64,000 nt of DNA. Source: Novosphingobium resinovorum (GTDB lineage: Bacteria; Pseudomonadota; Alphaproteobacteria; Sphingomonadales; Sphingomonadaceae). Each line of letters begins with the position of its first letter. Within the stretch, counting starts at the first letter, position 1. Made by a program: the position numbers and the translations under genes. Location: positions 186,001 to 250,000 of the forward strand of contig NZ_CP017076.1 of assembly GCF_001742225.1 (NCBI RefSeq), given 5' to 3'. Below, piece by piece: positions 43,784 through 56,109 of this stretch. Below the pieces are notes generated by a model that made no database searches, was not told the origin of the DNA, and saw only the letters and a list, made by a program, of their open reading frames with translations.

Positions 43784-45007
43784 TCAGAAGCGGAGGCATC
43801 GCACCCGGGAGCCCGCAACCGCGGGCACCGCATGCGCGCGCCGTTCCACCAGCAGGTCGGCGCGGGCGAGCAGCATCTGGGCCGATGCTTCCTGCCGCTC
43901 GATGATGGCGACGCCGTCTCCCGCATTGTCTCCTGCCGCGCAAAGGAACTGATCGCGATCGCTTCTGCCCGGCGCATCGTGGAGCAGCCGGTGCTCGCTC
44001 CACTGCAAAGCCTGATCGAAGCCCGCGCCGGAAAGCGCGCAGATCATGGGCGCCAGAAAGAGGCGGGCAGTGGTCAGCGCGGCGGTCGGATTGCCTGGCA
44101 GGCCAAGCACATGAGTCCGGCCGATCCTGCCGTACCATAGCGGCTTGCCCGGCTTCATCGCCACACCGGCAAAGGCCATCCGCAGGCCCAGCGGCATCAG
44201 CGCCCTCCGTGCCAGATCCCGGTGGCCGTGCGAGGCGCCGCCCGCGACGACGATAAGGTCCGTCCCGTCCATCGCCGCCATCGCAGCCGCACGCAGGTCC
44301 TCGACCCGGTCCATCGATCGCAAGGTGCCGAGCGGTTTCGCACCCCATTGACGCGCCATCAGCAGCAGGGCTTCGCTCAGGCTGTCGGGGATGGTATCGA
44401 CGTCGGGTGCGGCATTGCCGGGAACGACAAGCTCGTCTCCATTGACCATCACCCGAAGCCGGGGTTGGCGCCACACGGGCAGCTTCGCAATATCGGCAGC
44501 GGCGGCGACCACCATGGCGCGGGGACCGATCCGGCTGCCTGCCGGGAGCAGCGCCGTACCTTTCGCAAAATCGGATGCGCGCGGCCTGACATGGGGCTTG
44601 CCCGAAGTACGCGGCAGGATCACCTCTTTGCCGTCGAGGCGGGCGTGTTCGCGCATCACCACCCGGTCTGCTCCCAAGGGTATCGGTGCGCCGGTCGAGA
44701 TGCGCATCGCGGCTCCGGGTCGCAATGGCAACGGCTGGCTTCCCCCGGCCACGCTCTCTCCCTGCAGCACGAAGCGGGTGAAATCCCCGGCAAAGTCCTC
44801 GGACCGGACGGCGAAACCGTCCATTGCCGCGCTGTCCCGCCTTGGTGAATCGATCTGCGCGATGGCATCACCGGCCAGCGTCCGGCGACCGGCCTTCGCC
44901 AGCGGGACCCATTCGACCCCCAGCGGCGCGCAGCTTTGCCGGACTATCGCCTGCGCGTCATCGAAGGTTGCGGCAGCGTGGCAGGGCAGTTCGGGAGCGG
45001 TGGCCAT
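43784..45007 (-). CDS. moeA: Molybdopterin molybdenumtransferase
   Basis: 407-residue MoeA, which inserts molybdate into adenylylated molybdopterin. SPRRDSAAMDGFAVRS, GAPIPLGADRVVMRE and VLGLPGNPTAAL are typical. The usual GGVSVGxxD loop reads GGASHGHRD, keeping the Gly pair and the Asp but altering the middle. It closes the nirB-nirD-nasA-cobA-moeA operon, where it makes sense as the supplier of molybdenum cofactor for nitrate reductase. No moaA-E or mogA is in the window, so the core pathway lies elsewhere. Confidence 0.93.
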   Translation of the reverse strand: MATAPELPCHAAATFDDAQAIVRQSCAPLGVEWVPLAKAGRRTLAGDAIAQIDSPRRDSAAMDGFAVRSEDFAGDFTRFVLQGESVAGGSQPLPLRPGAAMRISTGAPIPLGADRVVMREHARLDGKEVILPRTSGKPHVRPRASDFAKGTALLPAGSRIGPRAMVVAAAADIAKLPVWRQPRLRVMVNGDELVVPGNAAPDVDTIPDSLSEALLLMARQWGAKPLGTLRSMDRVEDLRAAAMAAMDGTDLIVVAGGASHGHRDLARRALMPLGLRMAFAGVAMKPGKPLWYGRIGRTHVLGLPGNPTAALTTARLFLAPMICALSGAGFDQALQWSEHRLLHDAPGRSDRDQFLCAAGDNAGDGVAIIERQEASAQMLLARADLLVERRAHAVPAVAGSRVRCLRF

Positions 45008-45011
45008 TCGC

Positions 45012-45812
45012 CTACTCCCCTACCGCGATGCGCAGGGGCATTGCCACCGCCGAACCGACGGGCACCGTGCCGTCGGCCTGCGCGACGGCCTCTCCGATCA
45101 GGATCAGAGTGGGGCGGTCCTCGGCAAAGGCCTGGGCCACCAGCGGCAGCAGGTCCAGCCGGGTGCGCAATTGCTGCTCCTGCGGCAGCGACGCGTCGCA
45201 GGTGATCAGGGCAGGCGTGGAGCCCGGCAGACCGGCGGCGATGAGCGCCATGCTCAGTTCCGGTGCCGCTTCCCGGCCCATGTAGACGGCCAGCGTGCAG
45301 GCGGGATCGGCGAGCGCCGGCCAGTCCAGATCGAGTGCCTGCCCGTTGCGGCTATGGGCCGTGACGAACTGCACCCGACGGGCGATGCCGCGTAGGGACA
45401 GCGACAGCCCGGCCGATGCCGCAACGGCGCTGGCGGCGGTGATGCCCGGACAGATGCGCACCCGCACGCCGACCTTGCGCAAGGCTGTCATCTCTTCGGT
45501 CGCACGGGCGAACATGGCCGGGTCGCCGCCCTTGAGCCGCACCACGCGCTTACCGGCAAGCGCGGCTGCGACGAGCATCTCATCGATGCTCTGCTGATCG
45601 CGGGAGTGGCGGCCCGAGCGCTTGCCCACGCTGACGCGGTCCGTGCGGGCAGGGATGAGATCGAGCACGCCGGGGCCGACGAGCGCGTCGTGGAAAACGA
45701 CGTCGGCCGCCGCGATCAGCTTTTCCGCCTTGCGGGTCAATAGATCCGGGTCGCCCGGCCCGGCGCCGACCAGCCAGACTTCACCGGGGGCGATCAGTTC
45801 ATTCGGCTGCAT
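45012..45812 (-). CDS. cobA: Uroporphyrinogen-III C-methyltransferase (SUMT)
   Basis: 266 residues. VWLVGAGPGDPDLLTRKA, HDALV, VSVGKRSGRHS, VVRLKGGDPAMFARATEE and CPGITAASA are the SUMT signatures. The enzyme makes precorrin-2, the first step to siroheme, the cofactor that NirB needs. The start at 45812 overlaps the nasA 3' end by 14 bp; an upstream Met at 45854 is less likely. There is no fused dehydrogenase/ferrochelatase (CysG) domain, so that step must be encoded elsewhere. Confidence 0.94.
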   Translation of the reverse strand: MQPNELIAPGEVWLVGAGPGDPDLLTRKAEKLIAAADVVFHDALVGPGVLDLIPARTDRVSVGKRSGRHSRDQQSIDEMLVAAALAGKRVVRLKGGDPAMFARATEEMTALRKVGVRVRICPGITAASAVAASAGLSLSLRGIARRVQFVTAHSRNGQALDLDWPALADPACTLAVYMGREAAPELSMALIAAGLPGSTPALITCDASLPQEQQLRTRLDLLPLVAQAFAEDRPTLILIGEAVAQADGTVPVGSAVAMPLRIAVGE

Positions 45813-48423
45813 CGAGAACCTCCTCGTTGGCCTGTGCCGTATTGGTCTGTGCAAGAATTTTGGCGAGGGCAGGGCGGCACGACCCGCAGTTGGTGCCCGC
45901 GCCCAGCGCCCTGCCGATGGCGGGAACGTCCACCAGCGCCTGCTCGCGGATGGCGGCGACGATCTGGTTGAGGCCGATGTCGAAGCAGACGCAGACGGTC
46001 GCGCCCTTGTCCGGCTGGCTGCCGGGGCCGCGCGCGGCGAGCACGGTGGCGCCCACGTCGCCCGCCGCGAGTTGCCCGATCAGCCAGTCGCGCGAAGGCA
46101 GCAGGCCGGTGCGGGTGACGAACAGCACGCCCGCCAGACGCCCCTCGACGATCACCGCGATGCGGCGCGAGCCTCGGGTATGGTCGATGGCCTCGATGCG
46201 CTCGCCTTTGGGCAGGCAGGCTTCGATGCGCGCGGCATCGCCATTGCCCGCGATCTCGTAGAGCGCGCCGCCGGGCACCGCCACGCGCGTCGCCCACAGG
46301 CAGGGCACGCGGGCGGGTTCATCGCCGCGCAGGATGAGGAAGCCCTTCCATTCGGTCTCGACTTTGGCGAGCGCGGCGGGGGTGGACTTGAAGCCGGGCT
46401 GGCCGGAGTGCGGATCGACCAGCGGGCGCGGCAGCAGGCCGGTGCGGCCGCCGGTGGAGATCTGGTCGGTCCAGTGGATCGGCGTGAAGATCTCGCCCGG
46501 GCGTTGCCCGTCGCTGAGCTGCACGCGGAAGGTGCTGTTGCCCTGCGGGGTCGAGACGCGGGCGAGATCGCCGTCCGTGAGGTCCAGCGCGAGGGCGTCG
46601 GCGGGATGGACCTCGACCAGCGGCTCCTCGCGGTGGCGCGCCAGCTTGGGGGCGAGGCCGGTGCGCGTCATCGTGTGCCACTGGTCGCGGTAGCGCCCGG
46701 TGTTGAGCGTCAACGGCCAGTCGGCGAGCGGTGCCTGAAGGTCCATCTGTCCGACCTTGACCATCCGCGCGCGTCCGCTCGGCGTCGGGAAGCGACCGTC
46801 GGCGAACGGTGTACCACCCCAGCGGAACGGCTCCATCGCGTCATAGGCAAGGTTGCCGATCGCGGCGTGGGCGGCGAGGTTCAGGACGCGCGCGCCATCA
46901 TTCTGATAGCCCGTGAGGCGCGCATGTTCGCGCCAGATGTCGGCGGGAGTATCATAGGCGAAGGCGCTCCCCCAGCCCATCCGGCGGCCCACTTCCTTGA
47001 CGATCCACCAGTCCGGCTTCGCCTCCCCGGGCAGCGCCATGAACGGACGCTGGCGGCTGATGGTGCGCTCCGAATTGGTGACGGTGCCGTCCTTCTCCCC
47101 CCATGCGGCGGCGGGGAGGCGCACATGGGCATAGGCGGTGGTGTCCGTGTTCGCGATGACGTCGGAGACGACGACGAAGGGGCATTTCTCCAGCGCCGCA
47201 CGCACGTTGCCCGCGTCGGGCAGCGAGACGGCGGGGTTGGTCGCCATGACCCACAGCGCCTTGATCCGCCCCTCGCCGATCGCGCGGAACAGGTCCACTG
47301 CTTTGAGACCCGGCTTCGTCGCCATCGTCGGCGCGGCCCAGAAGCGGCCGACGCGCGCGACGTTCTCGGCCGCGAAGTCCATGTGCGCAGCCAGCGTCGA
47401 GGCGAGCCCGCCGACCTCGCGCCCGCCCATCGCATTGGGCTGCCCGGTGATCGAGAACGGCGCCGCGCCCGGCTGGCCGATCCGCCCCGTCGCAAGATGC
47501 AGGTTGATGATCGCGTTGACCTGGTCGGTGCCGCGGATCGACTGGTTGATCCCCTGGCTGAACATCGTGACCGTGCGCGGGTTCGCGGCAAACATCTCGT
47601 AGAACTGCAGCAGCAGCGCGGGATCGAGGTCACAGGTCTGCGCCGTGGTCCACACGTCATGGCCGGTCGCAAGGTGCTCCCAGAAACCCTCGGGCGCATC
47701 GACGTGGGCAGCCATGAACGCCTTGTCGACCATGCCCTGCTCGGCGAGCCATGCCAGCAGCCCGTTCATCAGCGCCACGTCGCTGCCGGGGCGCAGCGGC
47801 AGGTGCAGGTCGGCGCCTTCGCAGGTTTCTGTGCGGCGCGGGTCGATGACGATCAGCTTCGTGCCCCGCTCTGCACGCGCCGCCTGGATGCGCTGGTAGA
47901 CGATCGGATGGCACCATGCCGTGTTCGAACCGACCAGCACGACGAGGTCGGCCTTGTCCAGATCCTCGTAGCCGGCGGGCACCACGTCCTCGCCGAAGGC
48001 GCGGGTGTGGCCGGCGACCGCGCTCGACATGCACAGGCGCGAATTGGTGTCGATGTTGGCCGAACCGATGAAGCCCTTCATCAGCTTGTTGGCGACGTAA
48101 TAGTCCTCGGTCAGCAGCTGGCCGGAAACATAGAACGCCACGCTGTCCGGGCCATGGCGGGCGATGGTGTCGCGAAAGCGCTTGGCGACGAGGTCCAGCG
48201 CCTTGTCCCAGCGTACGCGCTTGTCGCCGATCATCGGGTGGAGAAGGCGGCCGCTCAGCCCGACCGTCTCGCCCAGATGCGTACCCTTGGAGCAGAGGCG
48301 CCCCGCATTCGCCGGGTGTGCCTCGTCCCCCCGGATCGTCACCTCGCGCGCACCCGTGGGGGTGGCCGAGATGCCGCAGCCGACGCCGCAATAGGCGCAG
48401 GTCGTGCGGACCGCCTCGCGCAT
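45799..48423 (-). CDS. nasA: Assimilatory nitrate reductase catalytic subunit
   Basis: 874-residue cytoplasmic molybdoenzyme that reduces nitrate to nitrite. The N-terminal 4Fe-4S ligands are Cys9, Cys12, Cys16 and Cys44 (TTCAYCGVGC ... GRLCSKG). The molybdopterin domains follow, with SRLCMSSAVAGHTRAFG containing the Mo-ligand cysteine region. The C-terminal extension has a 2Fe-2S BFD-like domain (CVCFDIGLNQI ... GTNCGSCRPAL), as in NasA/NasC proteins. No Tat signal, in line with a cytoplasmic location. The ATG overlaps the nirD stop. Confidence 0.97.
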   Translation of the reverse strand: MREAVRTTCAYCGVGCGISATPTGAREVTIRGDEAHPANAGRLCSKGTHLGETVGLSGRLLHPMIGDKRVRWDKALDLVAKRFRDTIARHGPDSVAFYVSGQLLTEDYYVANKLMKGFIGSANIDTNSRLCMSSAVAGHTRAFGEDVVPAGYEDLDKADLVVLVGSNTAWCHPIVYQRIQAARAERGTKLIVIDPRRTETCEGADLHLPLRPGSDVALMNGLLAWLAEQGMVDKAFMAAHVDAPEGFWEHLATGHDVWTTAQTCDLDPALLLQFYEMFAANPRTVTMFSQGINQSIRGTDQVNAIINLHLATGRIGQPGAAPFSITGQPNAMGGREVGGLASTLAAHMDFAAENVARVGRFWAAPTMATKPGLKAVDLFRAIGEGRIKALWVMATNPAVSLPDAGNVRAALEKCPFVVVSDVIANTDTTAYAHVRLPAAAWGEKDGTVTNSERTISRQRPFMALPGEAKPDWWIVKEVGRRMGWGSAFAYDTPADIWREHARLTGYQNDGARVLNLAAHAAIGNLAYDAMEPFRWGGTPFADGRFPTPSGRARMVKVGQMDLQAPLADWPLTLNTGRYRDQWHTMTRTGLAPKLARHREEPLVEVHPADALALDLTDGDLARVSTPQGNSTFRVQLSDGQRPGEIFTPIHWTDQISTGGRTGLLPRPLVDPHSGQPGFKSTPAALAKVETEWKGFLILRGDEPARVPCLWATRVAVPGGALYEIAGNGDAARIEACLPKGERIEAIDHTRGSRRIAVIVEGRLAGVLFVTRTGLLPSRDWLIGQLAAGDVGATVLAARGPGSQPDKGATVCVCFDIGLNQIVAAIREQALVDVPAIGRALGAGTNCGSCRPALAKILAQTNTAQANEEVLDAAE

Positions 48424-48758
48424 CAGGCCGCGTCCCTCATCACTTCGGGACGCGCCAGCAGGATGCGACCGTTCTCCTCACGCACGGCAATGGTCGGGGT
48501 GCAGCCGCTGTCCGCCCCTTGCGCCTCGCCGCTCGCCAGCGCGATGTTCCAGTTGTGCAGCGGACAGGCGACCGCGTGGCCATGGACGATGCCCTGGCTG
48601 AGCGGCCCCTTCTTGTGCGGGCATTCGTTGACGAGCGCGAAGACCTTGTCGTCGCCGGTGCGGAAGACGGCGATCTCCGGCTCCCCCTCGAACCGCACGG
48701 TGCGCGCGCCGCGCTGGGGGATGTCGCTCAGGGTTCCGATATCGATCCAGTCGGTCAT
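48423..48758 (-). CDS. nirD: Nitrite reductase small subunit, Rieske type
   Basis: 111 residues with a Rieske fold: ECPHKKG and CPLHNW supply Cys46, His48, Cys65 and His68, so a 2Fe-2S cluster can be bound (many enterobacterial NirD proteins have lost these residues). It pairs with NirB to reduce nitrite to ammonium. The start at 48758 is the first ATG after the nirB stop; an in-frame GTG at 48767 is a weaker option. The stop overlaps the nasA ATG by 4 bases. Confidence 0.95.
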   Translation of the reverse strand: MTDWIDIGTLSDIPQRGARTVRFEGEPEIAVFRTGDDKVFALVNECPHKKGPLSQGIVHGHAVACPLHNWNIALASGEAQGADSGCTPTIAVREENGRILLARPEVMRDAA

Positions 48759-48763
48759 GGCGT

Positions 48764-51289
48764 TCACTCCGCTGCTTCGAGAGCAAGAGGTTGGAGGTGC
48801 TGGTGCAGGTCGGCGCGATCGCCCGAGGCGCGTTCGGCCCACGGATCGTCCTGGCTGAAGCTCTGCGAATAGAGGAACCGCGCGGCGAGCGCCTTGCGGC
48901 CCGCCTCGTCCTCGACCACGCGGGACTTCACGTAGTCGACGCCGACGCGCTCGATCCACGGTGCGGTGCGTTCCAGATAGCGCGCTTCCTCGCGGTAGAC
49001 CTGGATGAAGGCGGCGCAATATTCGAGCGCTTCCTCCTCGGTCGCGACCTTGCACAGGAAGTCGGTGGCGCGCACCTTGATGCCGCCGTTGCCGCCCACG
49101 CTCAGTTCGTAGCCGGAATCCACGCAAACGATTCCAAAGTCCTTGATCGTCGCCTCGGCGCAGTTGCGCGGGCAGCCGGAAACCGCGATCTTGAACTTGT
49201 GCGGCATCCAGCTGCCCCAGGTCATCCGCTCGGTCTTGACGCCGAGGCCGGTCGAATCCTGCGTGCCGAAGCGGCACCATTCCGAACCCACGCAGGTCTT
49301 CACCGTGCGCAGGGACTTGCCGTAGGCATGGCCCGAGACCATCCCGGCGGCGTTGAGATCGGCCCAGACGGCGGGCAAATCCTCCTTCTTGATGCCGAAG
49401 ATGTCGAGGCGCTGGCCACCGGTCACCTTCACCATCGGCGCATCGTACTTCTCGACCACGTCGGCGATCGCGCGCAACTCGCGCGGGTTGGTGAGGCCGC
49501 CCCACATGCGCGGGACCACCGAATAGGTGCCGTCCTTCTGGATGTTGGCGTGCATACGCTCGTTGACGAAGCGGCTCTGCTGGTCGTCCACGTATTCGCC
49601 GGGCAGCGCGCAGAGCAGGTAGTAGTTGAGCGCCGGGCGGCAGGACGAACAGCCATCCGGCGTCGCCCAGTGCAGCTTCTGCATCACTTCGGGGATCGAG
49701 CGCATGTCCTGCGCCACGATCTCGCGGCGCACGTCGTCGTGCGTGAAGCTGGTGCACTTGCACAAGGTCTTCGGCCCTGCCTCGACCTCTTCGCCCAGCG
49801 TCAGCGCCAGCAGGCTCTCGACAAGGCCGGTGCACTGCCCGCAGCTGGCCGAAGCCTTGCAGGTGGCGCGCACGGCGTCGAGGCTGCAGGCACCCGCCTC
49901 GATGCAACCGACGACCTGGCCCTTGGAGACGCCGTTGCAGCCGCAGATCTCGGCATCGTCCGAGAGCGCCGCAACGGCCGCCTTAGGGTCCAGCGCGCCT
50001 CCTCCCGAGGCGAAGGCCTGGCCGAAGATCAGCAGGTCGCGGACTTCGGAAACGTCCTCGCCCTTCTTCAGCAGGTCGAAGTACCAACCGCCGTCCGCCG
50101 TATCGCCGTAGAGTACGGCGCCGACGACCTTGTCGTCCTTCACCACGACGCGCTTGTAGACCCCGCGCGCGGCATCGCGCAGCACGATGTCCTCGCATCC
50201 CTCGCCGCCCGAGAAGTCGCCGGCGGAGAACACGTCGAGCCCGGCGACCTTCAGCTTGGTCGAGGTGACCGAGCCGCGATAGCCGGTGTGCCGGTCGGTC
50301 AGCCCGTCGGCGAGGCTGCGGCACATGTCCCACAGCGGCGCGACGAGGCCGTAGACGTTGCCGTCATGCTCCACGCATTCGCCGACCGCGAGCACCGAGG
50401 GGTCGCTGGTGACCATGTGGTCGTCGACCTTGATGCCGCGCCCGACGTCCAGCCCCGCCTCGCGCGCCAGCGCGGTGGCGGGACGGATGCCCACGGCCAT
50501 GACGACAAGGCTGGCCGGAATCTCGCGCCCGTCCTTGAGGCGCACGCCCTCGACCTTGCCCTCGCCGTAGATCTCGGCGGTGTCGGCGCCCGTCAGGATG
50601 GACTGGCCGCGACCTTCCAGCGCGGACTTGAGCAGCCAGCCCGCGGCCTCGTCCAGCTGGCGCTCCATCAGCGTGGACATGAGGTGGATGACGGTGACCT
50701 TCATGCCGCGCAGGGTCAGACCATGCGCCGCCTCCAGCCCCAGCAGGCCGCCGCCGATGACCACGGCCGAGCCGCCACCTTGCGCTTTTCCGGCCTCGGC
50801 AGCCGCCAGCATCGTATCGACGTCGTTCATGTCGCGGAACGAGATCACGCCGGGCAGATCCTTGCCGGGCACCGGAATGATGAACGGATCGGAGCCGGTC
50901 GCGATCAGCAGGCGGTCGTAATGCACCGTGCGGCCCGAGCGCGAAGTCACGGTTTTCGCCGCGCGGTCGATCGCGGTGACGGGATCGGCGGTGATGAGGT
51001 CGATGCCGTTCTCGTCGTACCACTCGCGGGTGTTGATGACGATCTGGTCGAAGGTCTTCTCACCCGCCAGCACCGGCGAAAGCATGATGCGGTTGTAGTT
51101 CACATGCGGTTCGGCGCCGAAGATGGTCACGCGGTAGCGGTCCGCATCGCGCGCCAGCAGTTCCTCGACCGCGCGGCAGCCCGCCATGCCGTTGCCGACG
51201 ACGACCAGATGCTCGCGCACATCGTCGCTCGGCACGATCGGCGCGTCGTCATAGTCGGAATTGGGTTCGATCCCGTCCTGAAAGTCCAT
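48764..51289 (-). CDS. nirB: Nitrite reductase large subunit
   Basis: 841-residue NAD(P)H-dependent siroheme nitrite reductase. In order: FAD/NAD-binding domains (LVVVGNGMAGCRAVEEL; VVIGGGLLGLEAAHGL), a BFD-like 2Fe-2S domain (CGCNGVSKG ... CGQCTGLV), a second Cys-rich segment (CKCTSFTHDDVR), and the siroheme/4Fe-4S domain with TCVGSEWCRFG and SGCPRNCAEA. It heads the nirB-nirD-nasA-cobA-moeA operon and is preceded by the ANTAR-type leader at 51325-51427. CGGAG lies about 10 bases before the ATG. Confidence 0.97.
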   Translation of the reverse strand: MDFQDGIEPNSDYDDAPIVPSDDVREHLVVVGNGMAGCRAVEELLARDADRYRVTIFGAEPHVNYNRIMLSPVLAGEKTFDQIVINTREWYDENGIDLITADPVTAIDRAAKTVTSRSGRTVHYDRLLIATGSDPFIIPVPGKDLPGVISFRDMNDVDTMLAAAEAGKAQGGGSAVVIGGGLLGLEAAHGLTLRGMKVTVIHLMSTLMERQLDEAAGWLLKSALEGRGQSILTGADTAEIYGEGKVEGVRLKDGREIPASLVVMAVGIRPATALAREAGLDVGRGIKVDDHMVTSDPSVLAVGECVEHDGNVYGLVAPLWDMCRSLADGLTDRHTGYRGSVTSTKLKVAGLDVFSAGDFSGGEGCEDIVLRDAARGVYKRVVVKDDKVVGAVLYGDTADGGWYFDLLKKGEDVSEVRDLLIFGQAFASGGGALDPKAAVAALSDDAEICGCNGVSKGQVVGCIEAGACSLDAVRATCKASASCGQCTGLVESLLALTLGEEVEAGPKTLCKCTSFTHDDVRREIVAQDMRSIPEVMQKLHWATPDGCSSCRPALNYYLLCALPGEYVDDQQSRFVNERMHANIQKDGTYSVVPRMWGGLTNPRELRAIADVVEKYDAPMVKVTGGQRLDIFGIKKEDLPAVWADLNAAGMVSGHAYGKSLRTVKTCVGSEWCRFGTQDSTGLGVKTERMTWGSWMPHKFKIAVSGCPRNCAEATIKDFGIVCVDSGYELSVGGNGGIKVRATDFLCKVATEEEALEYCAAFIQVYREEARYLERTAPWIERVGVDYVKSRVVEDEAGRKALAARFLYSQSFSQDDPWAERASGDRADLHQHLQPLALEAAE

Positions 51290-51324: not shown

Positions 51325-51389
51325 TGAAAACGAGAAAAGGCCGCCATCCAGACCCCCGGTTCGAAACCGGAAGTCAGGATGGCGGCCTT
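51325..51389 (-). terminator. Leader terminator of the nirB operon
   Basis: On the minus strand, AAGGCCGCCATCC pairs with GGATGGCGGCCTT (13 bp), with a nested CCGGTT-TCG-AACCGG stem in between, followed by TTTTCTCGTTTT. This is a strong intrinsic terminator about 40 bases upstream of the nirB start, so transcription must read through it for nitrite and nitrate reductase to be made. Its 5' arm (51377-51389) is shared with the second hexaloop hairpin. Confidence 0.92.
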
Positions 51390-51427
51390 GCCATCATTCG
51401 GTGCCTAAGTGCCCCGTCAGTGGGACA
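51378..51427 (-). promoter_or_regulatory. Tandem ANTAR-target hairpins in the nirB leader
   Basis: Reading the minus strand: hairpin 1 is TGTCCC-ACTGAC-GGGGCA (51410-51427) and hairpin 2 is GATGGC-AAGGCC-GCCATC (51378-51395), joined by a 14-base linker. Both loops have six bases with A at position 1 and G at position 4, the published hallmark of RNAs bound by ANTAR proteins such as NasT. Hairpin 2 uses the terminator's 5' arm, so the two structures exclude each other. NasT bound to the hairpins is therefore expected to permit read-through. Confidence 0.9.
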
Positions 51428-51477
51428 TTTCGGCGATGTAGGAAGGACAACGCTGCCCTTTGCACTGCAACATAAAT

Positions 51478-51505
51478 GGAATCGCCCGAAGGCTCAAGCG
51501 ATTCC
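51478..51505 (-). terminator. Hairpin downstream of the porin gene
   Basis: Perfect 8-bp stem GGAATCGC / GCGATTCC with a 12-base loop, 13 bases past the porin stop on the minus strand. It probably ends the porin transcript before the nirB promoter region (51428-51477), though the T-run is weak. Confidence 0.6.
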
Positions 51506-52811: not shown

Positions 52812-54068
52812 TCAGATGCGCGCGCCGGTTTTCCAGGTCGCGCGCCAGCGGCCCTTGACGCTCGCCACCGAGGCGAGAGCCACGACCGCAAGGCCGGCAA
52901 AGATCAGGAAGCCCGGCGCGAAGCTGCCAGTGAACTGCTTGGCCAGGCCGAGCGAGCTGGCGAGGTAGAACCCGCCGACACCGCCCGCCATGCCGACGAG
53001 GCCGGTCATCACGCCGATCTCGGCCTGGAAGCGCTGCGGGACCAGCTGGAACACCGAACCGTTGCCGGTGCCGAGCGCCAGCATCGCCACCACGAACAGC
53101 CCGAGCGCCGCGATCAGGCTAGGCGCCTGAGACACGCCGACAAGCGCGATCGCAGCCACCGCGTAGACCATCATCAGCGCCTTCACACCGCCGATCTTGT
53201 CGGCCAGCGCGCCGCCCATCGGACGGACCAGCGATCCGGCGAAGACGCAGCCCGCCGTGCAATATCCGGCGACGACGGTGCTGAGGCCGAACTGGTCGGT
53301 GAAGTAGATCGGCAGCGACGCGGCAAGCCCCACGAAACCGCCGAAAGTCACCGCGTAGAAGGCCATCAGCCACCATGCGTCCGCCTGCTTGAGCAGCGCC
53401 GCATAGTCCACCAGCTTGCGCGGCGCGGGCTGGTTCGGTGCGTCCTTCGCCAGCGCGAGATAGATGCATAGCACCACGGTCAGCGGGATGCAGGCAAGGC
53501 CCAGCACCGCGTTCCAGCCGAACATCTTGGCCAGCGTCGGCGCGAAGAGCGCGGCGAAGACGGTGCCCGAATTGCCCATGCCCGCAAGGCCCATCGCCTT
53601 GCCTTGATGCTCGGCCGGATACCAGCGGCTGGCGAGCGGCAGCGCGATCGCGAAGCTCGCCCCCGCAAAGCCCAGGATCACGCCCAGCGCCAGCGTCCCG
53701 CCAAAGCTGGTGACGCCCATCGACCAGGCGAAGAACAGCCCGGTGATGACGATGACCTGATTGATCGCGCCCGAGCGCTTCGGCCCGATGCGATCGACCA
53801 GCAGCCCGTTGACGACGCGCAGGAGAGCGCCCGCCAGCGTGGGAAGCGCCACCATCAGGCCCTTCTGCGCGGGCGTGAGCCCGAGAGTCTTCGAAATCTC
53901 CGGCGCCAGCGGGCCGAGCAGGACCCAGACCATGAAGGCGAGGTCGAAATAGAGGAAAGCTGCGATCAGAGTCGGCGTGTGGCCGGCCTTCCAGAAGCCG
54001 ACGGCGGGCTTCTGCGCGGGCGCAAGCACGTCATTGTCTTCGTCAGGTCGGAAGAATGCGGTTGCCAT
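52812..54068 (-). CDS. narK: Nitrate/nitrite MFS transporter (NarK/NasA-permease type)
   Basis: 418 residues with 12 predicted membrane spans. FMVWVLLGPLAPEISKTLGLTPAQKGLMVALPTLAGALLR is the NNP-family opening, GFAGASFAIALPLASRWYP is the first nitrate signature and GMAGGVGGFYLASSLG the second. The start at 54068 is preferred because the longer frame to 54101 would begin inside the leader terminator; GGGGGA lies 7 bases upstream. It imports nitrate for NasA. Its leader carries the same ANTAR-type control as nirB. Confidence 0.93.
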   Translation of the reverse strand: MATAFFRPDEDNDVLAPAQKPAVGFWKAGHTPTLIAAFLYFDLAFMVWVLLGPLAPEISKTLGLTPAQKGLMVALPTLAGALLRVVNGLLVDRIGPKRSGAINQVIVITGLFFAWSMGVTSFGGTLALGVILGFAGASFAIALPLASRWYPAEHQGKAMGLAGMGNSGTVFAALFAPTLAKMFGWNAVLGLACIPLTVVLCIYLALAKDAPNQPAPRKLVDYAALLKQADAWWLMAFYAVTFGGFVGLAASLPIYFTDQFGLSTVVAGYCTAGCVFAGSLVRPMGGALADKIGGVKALMMVYAVAAIALVGVSQAPSLIAALGLFVVAMLALGTGNGSVFQLVPQRFQAEIGVMTGLVGMAGGVGGFYLASSLGLAKQFTGSFAPGFLIFAGLAVVALASVASVKGRWRATWKTGARI

Positions 54069-54102
54069 GGTACGTCCCCCATAAATCATGAAAGCGGACA
54101 CG

Positions 54103-54155
54103 AAAAAAGCCGCAGGCCGGACGTCACCCTTGCGGTGAGCCCGGTCAGCGGCTTT
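54103..54155 (-). terminator. Leader terminator of narK
   Basis: On the minus strand, AAAGCCGC pairs with GCGGCTTT, with inner CCGG/CCGG and CACC-GCAA-GGTG stems, and the 3' arm runs straight into six T residues. It lies 35 bases before the narK ATG. Its 5' arm (54148-54155) lies inside the second hexaloop hairpin. Confidence 0.9.
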
Positions 54156-54195
54156 GCTGCGAATTTCGGTGAGGATGGCGTCCCGTCTTTGGGAC
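54146..54195 (-). promoter_or_regulatory. Tandem ANTAR-target hairpins in the narK leader
   Basis: Minus strand: hairpin 1 is GTCCC-AAAGAC-GGGAC (54180-54195) and hairpin 2 is CAGC-AAAGCC-GCTG (54146-54159), with a 20-base linker. Both six-base loops have A1 and G4. The loop and 3' side of hairpin 2 form the terminator's 5' arm. The design is the same as that of the nirB leader, but the stems and linkers differ, so both were kept by selection rather than by recent copying. Confidence 0.88.
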
Positions 54196-54322
54196 AGCCT
54201 ATCCGGTGTGGTCGCGCTTCATCGCGAGACGCCTATATAGTCACGCGATTTCGCAGATCTGGCAAGACGTAAAATTGCACGCGTTTTCAGCGTCATCGCA
54301 TTTTCAATGCTGCCCAAAAATC

Positions 54323-55531
54323 CTAACGGGCAAAACCGGCGAGGTAGTCCTCGATCCGTTCAGGATCGAACACGCGGCCGTCGAAGAACCGGTCAGGCCC
54401 CAGCAGCAGGTCGCCCTTGCGCGAACCCACGCCGAGCGGCGCATCGACCGCCCCTTCCAGCTTCATGCTCGCCCCCGGCATCGGCAGGTCGCTGCCCGCA
54501 AGCGCACGGCGGTAGATGTCGGGACGGAACACCGCCGCCGCCTGCGCCTCGGTTTCGGCGGAAGGCTCCACCATGTTCCAGCGCACCAGTTGCGAATAGA
54601 TCCACAGCGCCTGGCTGCGCCACGGAAACGGCGTCGCCTCGCGGGAGAACAGCACGAAGTCGGGGCAGGACACCGCCGCATCGCCCGCCCTGGGGACGAT
54701 CGTGCCGCTCAACGTGCGCAGGATCAGGTCGGAGGGCTGCCCGACATAGCGCGGGTCGGCGAGAATATCGGCCAGTATCTCGCGGTTGTCCGGCTCGTCG
54801 CACCAGACGGCGGCGCGGGCGAGCGCGCGCAGCAGGCGGTCGGTGATCTCGGGGTTCTCCTCGAGCCATGGTTCGCGGAAGGCCAGCACTTTCTCCACCC
54901 CGCGCTGCCAGATGCGCTGACCGATCGCCACCGCCTCCGCGCGTCCGGACTCGATCGCGGCGCTGCCCCAGGGCTCGCCCGCGATGAAACCGTCGATCTC
55001 GCCGGCATGGATCGCCTCGACCGTCAGCGAGGGAGGCAGCACGCGCAGCACCACGTCGCGGTCGGGATCGATGCCCGCGCTGGCCAGCCAGTAGCGGAGC
55101 ATCAGCGCATGACTGGAAAAGCGGTGGACGACGCCGATGATCGGCTTGCGCCGCCACAGCCCGATTGCAGCGGCGAAGTCGTGCGCGGTGCCCAGCGGGT
55201 CGGCCAGCCGCGCGGCGGGATCGGGTGCGAGGGCGGCGGCGAAGTCCTTCGCCATGACCAGCATGTTGCCGTTGACGCCCAGCTTGAACGGCGCGGCCAG
55301 TGCGGCGGGCTGCTGGCTCAGGCCCAGCGTCACCGCCACCGCCAGCGGCGCCAGCATGTGCGCGGCCTGCACCTGTCCGTAGACCAGCCGGTCGCGCAAG
55401 GTCGCCCAGCTCGTCGTGCGCACGAGGTCGAGCGCAAGGCCCTCCTCCTCGGCAAAGCCGCGTTCGCGGGCGGCGGCGAGCACCGCGACGTCGTTGAGCG
55501 GCAGGAAGGCGATGCGAAGATTCGTCGTCAT
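54323..55531 (-). CDS. nasS: Cytoplasmic nitrate/nitrite sensor NasS (NrtA-like)
   Basis: 402 residues related to the nitrate-binding protein NrtA, but without any signal peptide (starts MTTNLRIAFLPLNDVAVLAAA), which marks the cytoplasmic sensor NasS. NasS binds nitrate or nitrite and holds NasT inactive in their absence (established for Paracoccus and Azotobacter). The KxxIGVVHRFSSHALMLRYWL and IDGFIAGEPWG segments line the ligand cleft in the family. The ATG and the nasT stop share one base, so the two proteins are made together. Confidence 0.93.
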   Translation of the reverse strand: MTTNLRIAFLPLNDVAVLAAARERGFAEEEGLALDLVRTTSWATLRDRLVYGQVQAAHMLAPLAVAVTLGLSQQPAALAAPFKLGVNGNMLVMAKDFAAALAPDPAARLADPLGTAHDFAAAIGLWRRKPIIGVVHRFSSHALMLRYWLASAGIDPDRDVVLRVLPPSLTVEAIHAGEIDGFIAGEPWGSAAIESGRAEAVAIGQRIWQRGVEKVLAFREPWLEENPEITDRLLRALARAAVWCDEPDNREILADILADPRYVGQPSDLILRTLSGTIVPRAGDAAVSCPDFVLFSREATPFPWRSQALWIYSQLVRWNMVEPSAETEAQAAAVFRPDIYRRALAGSDLPMPGASMKLEGAVDAPLGVGSRKGDLLLGPDRFFDGRVFDPERIEDYLAGFAR

Positions 55532-56109
55532 TATACCCCTCCCAGCAGGTCGCTGGCGGTAATCAGCGCCTGCGCGACCTCGGCGATCTTCTTGCCCTGG
55601 TTCATCGCGGTGGAGCGCAGGAGCGCATAGGCGTCCTGTTCGGACAAGGCGCGCTGGTTCATCAGGATCGACTTGGCGCGGTCGATCACCTTGCGGTCGG
55701 CAAGCGCGGTGCGCGCCTCCTCAAGCTCGGTCTGCATGCGCGAGAAGGCGTTGAAACGGCGCACCGCCAGTTCCAGCACCGGCTTCACCCGCTCCTTGCG
55801 CAAGCCATCGACGACATAGGCGGAGACGCCCGCGTCGATGGCGGCACCGATCATCGCCTCGTCCGACTGGTCGACGAACATCGCGATCGGCCGGGCCAGC
55901 GCCCGGCTTACGGTGAGCATTTCCTCCAGCGTATCGCGGCTGGGGCTGCCGAGGTCCATGAGCACGACGTCGGGCGCCATGCGCTCCAGCCGCGCCACGA
56001 AAGCGCCGCGCGGGGGAACGATATGGATGTCGTCATATCCCGCGTCGCGCAGCCCCTCCTCGAGCACGGTCGCGCGCAGCCCGCTGTCGTCGATGATGAC
56101 AATGCGCAT
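55531..56109 (-). CDS. nasT: ANTAR-domain antiterminator NasT
   Basis: 192 residues: pseudo-receiver domain with IDDSG (6-10) and Asp52 (LMDLGSPS), then a helical ANTAR domain (RTALADRKVIDRAKSILMNQRALSEQDAYALLRSTAMNQGKKIAEVA), the RNA-binding module that recognises tandem hexaloop hairpins. The start at 56109 is chosen because the upstream frame to 56271 has no family similarity. It is followed by nasS. Its expected RNA targets lie upstream of nirB and narK, within 5 kb. Confidence 0.95.
   Translation of the reverse strand: MRIVIIDDSGLRATVLEEGLRDAGYDDIHIVPPRGAFVARLERMAPDVVLMDLGSPSRDTLEEMLTVSRALARPIAMFVDQSDEAMIGAAIDAGVSAYVVDGLRKERVKPVLELAVRRFNAFSRMQTELEEARTALADRKVIDRAKSILMNQRALSEQDAYALLRSTAMNQGKKIAEVAQALITASDLLGGV

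Follow-up and report, generated by a model that had tools for sequence, protein, structure and literature searches.

Genomic context of the nirB leader

The window analysed here is a 64,000-nt stretch of the Novosphingobium resinovorum genome (NZ_CP017076.1, positions 186,001 to 250,000) and carries a cluster whose genes all lie on the minus strand (Table 1). The gene of a NasT-like ANTAR protein is directly followed by that of a NasS-like (NMT1_2) protein; a NarK-family transporter gene, a gene for a porin-like protein (Alginate_exp match below the cut-off) and nirB-nirD-nasA-cobA-moeA come next. The NasT-like protein, whose start codon was chosen by hand, is the sole ANTAR-domain match in the genome (PF03861, E 3.4e-19). 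The original prediction had placed NasT and NasS 5 kb from the nirB leader; the actual distance is about 3 to 4.7 kb.

The putative RNA-binding surface of NasT was compared with that of EutV (6wsh/6ww6), using a residue numbering (chain number minus 2) mapped by hand. As far as the available account of EutV names them, 8 of the 11 RNA-recognition residues are identical in NasT (Arg142, Lys143, Lys149, Glu160, Tyr164, Arg168, Met172 and Asn173), including the Tyr that stacks on the loop base G4. Two of the three differences are conservative (K147R and R177K), and the third, R175G, is a change; these differences count against the switch reading proposed below.

Table 1. Positions in the window of the cluster genes and of the elements of the two leaders
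Feature	Position	Strand	Description
moeA-like molybdopterin molybdotransferase	43784..45007	-	MoeA_N over cut-off; NCBIfam matches below
cobA, uroporphyrinogen-III C-methyltransferase (siroheme)	45012..45812	-	TIGR01469, over cut-off
nasA-type assimilatory nitrate reductase	45799..48423	-	Pfam over cut-off; NCBIfam nitrate reductase/formate dehydrogenase below; named from family and context
nirD, nitrite reductase small subunit	48423..48764	-	TIGR02378, over cut-off
nirB, nitrite reductase large subunit	48764..51289	-	TIGR02374, over cut-off
Intrinsic terminator, nirB leader	51327..51389	-	arms 51389-51378 and 51348-51337, apical hairpin 51375-51351, U-rich tract 51338-51327
P2, second ANTAR hexaloop hairpin (putative antiterminator)	51378..51395	-	GATGGC-AAGGCC-GCCATC, loop AAGGCC, A1/G4
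P1, first ANTAR hexaloop hairpin	51410..51427	-	TGTCCC-ACTGAC-GGGGCA, loop ACTGAC, A1/G4
P0, third (5′-most) hairpin	51443..51460	-	AAGGGC-AGCGTT-GTCCTT; A1/G4 if read as a hexaloop; tetraloop in the free fold
Predicted promoter, nirB leader	51469..51497	-	TTGAGC (51497-51492), 17 nt spacer, TATGTT (51474-51469)
NarK-family nitrate/nitrite MFS transporter	52812..54068	-	TIGR00886, E 1.3e-83, below curated cut-off
Second switch, before the NarK-family gene	54101..54227	-	P0 54227-54212, P1 54195-54180 (AAAGAC), P2 54159-54146 (AAAGCC)
NasS-like nitrate sensor	54323..55531	-	NMT1_2 domain
NasT-like ANTAR antiterminator	55531..56109	-	PF00072 (receiver-like) and PF03861

Architecture and folding of the nirB leader

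The region of the nirB leader, between the porin gene (end 51518) and nirB (start 51289), contains from 5′ to 3′ a promoter-like element, the hairpins P0, P1 and P2 and an intrinsic terminator, after which nirB follows. The two A1/G4 hexaloop hairpins of the original prediction, P1 and P2, have exactly the sequence described for them. The switch had been called complete at 51325..51427, but it goes beyond these limits, with a third, conserved hairpin (51460-51443) and a predicted promoter (51497-51469) lying upstream. A promoter-like pattern, CTTGNN-N16-19-YATNNT, is present in 56 of 60 nirB leaders; a generic sigma-70 scan found no promoter at 51469..51497. Within the 6.9 Mb genome, the exact core of P1, GTCCCANNGACGGG, is present twice, in this leader and in a second switch described below. 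This rarity, together with the 79.6-bit match of a covariance model whose training set excludes the window (see below), indicates that the hairpins are more than a product of chance.

The promoter region has repeats of its own. Positions 51505-51478 were flagged as a terminator, a reading that we discarded, as the tail ATTTATGTTG does not form a U run and the inverted repeat coincides in part with the conserved promoter-like element. This inverted repeat (GGAATCGC..GCGATTCC) extends across the -35 and the spacer. A palindrome, TTGCAGTGCAA, lies directly past the -10 (51470-51460), and most leaders of the extended group (see below) have instead a TGCANTGCA-type palindrome upstream of the -35.

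Folded alone, the terminator of the nirB leader reaches -45.6 kcal/mol (z -7.5), P1 -8.3 and P2 -8.4 kcal/mol, while the free fold of P0 (-6.8 kcal/mol) has 7 bp and a 4-base loop. The terminator is therefore strong, as had been proposed, and its 5′ arm (51389-51378) is made of the loop and 3′ side of P2; its 3′ arm (51348-51337) leads into TTTTCTCGTTTT. Since the P2 loop and 3′ arm are common to both folds, P2 and the terminator cannot coexist, and the mutual exclusivity read from the sequence at the outset holds. In the 140 nt leader, a structure with P0, P1 and P2 forced has -52.2 kcal/mol versus -75.0 kcal/mol for the free fold; as this amounts to a cost of about 23 kcal/mol, the default end state should be termination. 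Minimum free energy folds of growing transcripts show P0, P1 and P2 before the terminator, with P2 appearing at 90 nt and being replaced by the terminator at 130 nt, which leaves an interval for P2 to be held by a bound protein. Once P2 is held in this way, the terminator retains its apical fold, now severed from the U tract.

Conservation and covariation among related leaders

We compared 68 NasS loci, mostly from sphingomonads, the closest being from Novosphingobium resinovorum (NasS 99%). The arrangement nasT-nasS-narK-(porin)-nirB-nirD-nasA-cobA is widespread among them. Out of 67 nirB regions, window included, 60 were analysed, five being too short (L050, L051, L061, L063, L069) and two lacking a P2 anchor (L067, L068); among 62 transporter regions, 60 have a P2 anchor (not L051, L053) and 59 a P0 (not L050). 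The leaders were grouped in alignments of 43 compact nirB leaders including the window (A1), 17 extended nirB leaders (A2) and 57 of the 60 transporter leaders (A3, without L009, L024 and L050); a fourth alignment, A4, holds 27 of the 43 rows of A1. A terminator overlapping P2 is found in 60/60 nirB leaders analysed and in 58/60 transporter leaders.

Without any given structure, RNAalifold returned the three hairpins P0, P1 and P2 for every one of the alignments A1, A2 and A3, P0 thus emerging unprompted in all of them; its P0 loop has 4 bases in A1 and 6 bases in A2 and A3, and further helices were added in A2 and A3. In A1, 97.1% of the cells are paired and 9 of 18 pairs have changed on both sides, with far lower values in slid controls. 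Shuffles as high as the observed alignment were 0/500 on four measures and 1/500 on further pair types for A1, and 0/500 on all five measures for A2. The stems of P0 and P1 covary. P2 shows hardly any variation, which fits a sequence serving both folds, and is silent on covariation. As for the loops, G4 of P1 is kept in 60/60 nirB leaders (counts for P0 and P1 are taken from alignment columns, without a tie rule). The original expectation that relatives keep A1/G4 therefore stands for this base, and for A1 of P1 in only 50/60 (9 G, 1 C); both bases are kept in P2, where the anchor pattern itself required A1 and G4. In the nirB leaders of Sphingomonas and Brevundimonas (A2, L043-L066), an extra hairpin lies between P1 and P2, and the P1-P2 distance is about tripled.

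Three covariance models were used. Only R2, whose 27 training leaders include neither the window nor a named Novosphingobium locus, was held out, since the nirB leader belongs to the training set of R1 and the transporter leader to that of R3. R2 scores the nirB leader of the window with 79.6 bits (E 1.2e-15 over 862,894 bases) and finds 16/16 left-out compact leaders (61.3-92.0 bits); it also overlaps 17/17 extended leaders at E up to 0.52, the match ending before the true P2 in 13 of them. The transporter leader of the window is scored weakly by R1 (14.6 bits) and R2 (15.4 bits). A search of the genome itself with the three models, 150 candidates being scored with each, gave no strong match beyond one leader each, the next-best E values being 2.35 (R1), 4.43 (R2) and 0.057 (R3). 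The last of these (L158) was considered as a further target and taken as chance, because it falls within a long, apparently protein-coding open frame. R1 has matches at E up to 0.1 in 14/61 relatives, 6 of them strong (84-91 bits, own genome included) and 8 weak (21-25 bits). Rfam 15, which may or may not contain an ANTAR family, yielded nothing at gathering scores, and this stands on the side against the reading; allowing E up to 10 brought only chance matches to microRNAs, far below their own gathering scores.

Overall, the sequence-level predictions of the ANTAR antitermination reading that were tested, namely a single ANTAR protein, its RNA-recognition residues, G4 of P1 and covariation, bear it out.

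Some related loci have further features. Novosphingobium sp. PhB165 has an additional two-hexaloop leader with a terminator (L005:5030-5150; loops AACGAT and AACGGC), which precedes a second nasA homologue (39% identity). In Sphingomonas sp. NIC1 (L155, NZ_CP015523.1), the nasT-nasS-narK-porin-nirB-nirD-nasA-cobA cluster resides on a plasmid typed as mobilizable by PLSDB, and three hairpins are visible by eye in both leaders; a NasS match of equal score is on a plasmid of Sphingomonas sp. FARSPH.

A probable second switch before the NarK-family transporter gene

Between nasS and the transporter gene, a stretch of 255 nt contains a leader of the same design as that of nirB, with terminator arms at 54155-54148 and 54113-54106, followed by a T tract. 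The base at position 4 of the P1 loop is G in 57/57 aligned transporter leaders. Forcing P1 and P2 yields -62.2 kcal/mol versus -66.7 kcal/mol for the free fold, a cost of only 4.5 kcal/mol. Two features count against this leader: its P2 is weak (-3.7 kcal/mol alone), and the best-paired register of its P0, ATGAAG in the window, is without G4. P1 is also enclosed by an outer helix (54204-54173, GGATAGGC with GCCATCC), for which RNAalifold gives 4 pairs on A3, 3 with both-sided changes in some rows and one broken in 14/57. Both this putative second switch and P0 had been overlooked in the original prediction, which on the sequence evidence appears incomplete rather than wrong.

The third hairpin P0

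The fourth column of the P0 loop is G in 43/43 compact (A1) and 17/17 extended (A2) nirB leaders and in 55/57 transporter leaders, while the third column varies in all three sets and the fifth in the nirB sets. Under a strict best-hairpin rule, G4 is found in 57/60 nirB and 41/59 transporter leaders, and with a wider first search interval, in which the promoter repeat was often taken for P0, in 45/60. The first column is A in 47/60 and G in 13/60 nirB leaders, and G in 54/57 transporter leaders. These G1 loops are no strong objection to a hexaloop, because EutV, in the available text of its structural study, contacts G4 and makes no specific contact with A1 (PMC8934654). Conservation also reaches beyond G4, a point against the landing-site reading discussed below: position 6 is T in 43/43 compact leaders, and position 2 is A in 17/17 extended and 55/57 transporter leaders.

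The position of P0 is regular as well. The -10 box is followed at 7-10 nt by the first base pair of P0 in 55/56 leaders with a recognisable promoter, and P0 should therefore be the RNA 5′ end. The distance between P0 and P1 is 13-18 nt in 49/55 nirB leaders in which P1 was found, and it holds where the P1-P2 gap is 35-48 nt instead of 11-16 nt; for the transporter leaders it is 12-19 nt in 41/57, the automatic P1 pick having taken another hairpin in some of the others. Local shuffles would give 0.16/60 leaders with an equally strong R1/G4 hexaloop and 1.22 with any loop, these being shuffles of short local segments picked after P0 was known; the spacing, shuffle and -10-distance analyses all prefer G4 among near ties. 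In 5/60 nirB leaders (L006, L010, L037, L048, L066), the rules applied give P1 no stem of at least 4 bp closing a hexaloop, which speaks against the proposed switch; P0 has 5-8 bp in all five.

Could P0 be a landing site for NasT? We regard this as possible, at somewhat less than even odds, and we would place on a par with it the alternative that P1, P2 and the terminator form the NasT switch whereas P0 has nothing to do with NasT, being a 5′ mRNA hairpin that slows decay or shapes the transcription start. The location of P0 at the expected RNA 5′ end fits such a hairpin well, and so does the potential pairing within the loop: in all 43 compact leaders, base 6 is T and base 1 is A or G, so that the two can pair (A-U or G-U), and the P0 of the window indeed folds with a 4-base loop. 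This pairing, which yields a tetraloop, is a real caveat and an objection that counts against the landing site, and the EutV study, in the part available, suggests that tetraloops are kept out (PMC8934654). Yet a merely protective stem needs no fixed loop base, and G4 is nonetheless invariant in the 60 nirB leaders next to variable positions 3 and 5. Moreover, the extended leaders, in which bases 1 and 6 are mostly unpairable (C6 in 13/17), have A1 in addition to G4 in 17/17, and the spacing to P1 is held even in leaders whose P1 and P2 are roughly three times as far apart.

A crude scan of 65 remote loci gave a candidate in 24 and none in 35, the remaining 6 being duplicates. By eye, three hexaloops are visible in the remote leaders L065, L068, L093, L095 and L118, and two hexaloops with a P1-P2 gap of 2 nt and no evident P0 in L067 (Hyphomicrobium) and the relatives L080, L082, L128 and L136. 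A sigma-54-like promoter, TGGCA[CT]-N4-6-TTGC, precedes L080, L082, L128, L136 and also L083. By eye, the latter has a P0-like hairpin with one mismatch, and L101 shows a similar promoter-like stretch together with a P0-like hairpin. Given these counter-examples, promoter type does not appear to sort cleanly the leaders with and without P0.

Proposed mechanism

We propose that the nirB leader is a nitrate-responsive transcription antitermination switch controlled by NasT, and that a second copy gates the NarK-family transporter; from the sequence evidence we estimate the probability of this reading at about 0.9. As the sequence shows, RNA polymerase makes P0, P1 and P2 in turn before it arrives at the strong terminator, composed of the P2 loop and 3′ arm and of the downstream arm leading into the U-rich tract. 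By analogy with characterised NasST systems, NasS would hold NasT when nitrate is absent, the terminator would displace P2 and transcription would stop before nirB. In the presence of nitrate or nitrite, NasS would release NasT, which would bind the G4-bearing hexaloops and keep P2 folded, so that the polymerase could read into nirB-nirD-nasA-cobA-moeA. The second copy would act in the same manner on the transporter gene.

One step goes beyond the known model and is less certain: located at the expected RNA 5′ end and about 15 nt before P1, P0 might serve as an initial landing site, catching NasT while P1 and P2 have yet to form. The resulting model, a three-hexaloop ANTAR leader in sphingomonads (and, by eye, in some other alphaproteobacteria), is put forward tentatively, and we would not bet on it at even odds. 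In it, NasT docks on P0, alone or on P0-P1, and is then handed to the emerging P1-P2, which places the regulator on the RNA before the terminator decision. The leaders without evident P0 have only 2 nt between P1 and P2, as though a dense arrangement and an early landing site solved one timing problem in two ways.

Two further explanations concern the switch as a whole. The leader could be an ANTAR target whose signal is not mainly nitrate, for instance nitrite, or the overall nitrogen state by way of NasT abundance. Indeed, in the available parts of the Paracoccus reports, both anions act on NasST, and nasT is expressed in an NtrC-dependent manner (PMC3795266, PMC5424462); we nevertheless hold this explanation improbable, considering that a NasS-like sensor is encoded beside NasT and that the controlled genes serve nitrate and nitrite use. 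That we deal with a plain terminator, e.g., one that ends the porin gene upstream, and with hexaloops arisen by chance is very improbable: the terminator does come after this gene and is strong by itself, but it is kept with P2 in all 60 nirB leaders, even at loci that have no porin match in front (L015, L017, L022 and others), P1 covaries, and a conserved promoter-like element separates the porin gene from the hairpins.

If correct, the NasT-controlled switch points to a single regulator that, in sphingomonads, governs the entry of nitrate and its reduction through two separate switches.

Comparison with known systems

Romeo et al. reportedly described in 2012 a NasT-type antitermination within nirBD-PA1779-cobA of Pseudomonas aeruginosa, an operon of nearly the same content as the one studied here, where moeA is an extra gene. 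Because NasT-type antitermination before nirBD-...-cobA has already been published, the nirB switch with P1 and P2 is of a known kind. The layout with three hairpins seems to be new: among the literature matches listed, as far as their text was accessible, there was neither a three-hexaloop ANTAR antiterminator leader nor a sphingomonad NasT leader.

There is no agreement on the way in which an ANTAR dimer engages two hexaloops, the available texts favouring either simultaneous binding (PMC3369936, PMC7496416) or sequential binding (PMC8934654). The natural leader with three hexaloop-like hairpins, known in 60 sequenced variants with differing P1-P2 spacings and a degraded P1 in some, would offer a ready test of this point.

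In Paracoccus denitrificans, nasT and nasS are likewise found together (PMC3795266, PMC5424462). In the portions of these reports available, nitrate causes the release of NasT, NasT binds the leader in the presence of nitrate (PMC3795266) and the upstream hairpin HI is required (PMC5424462); a series of hairpins is mentioned with data not shown (PMC3795266). One leader, located between nasS and nasA, is described there, as opposed to two leaders with three hairpins each in our case. NasT targets are known also from Bradyrhizobium, according to the accessible part of the corresponding study (PMC6759348). Two-hexaloop ANTAR leaders in which P2 overlaps the terminator are established, on the available text, in the eut leaders of Enterococcus faecalis (PMC3369931, PMC3369936, PMC8934654), which share with the present ones the A1/G4 hexaloops, the P2-terminator overlap and the presence of several leaders per regulator. 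They differ in having two hairpins instead of three, and a sensor histidine kinase in place of a NasS-like protein. Finally, the EutX sRNA carries, in the published description at hand, an additional single G4 hexaloop beside the dual motif (PMC8934654) and in this respect resembles the leaders with P0; EutX, however, is a sequestering sRNA and not an antiterminator leader.
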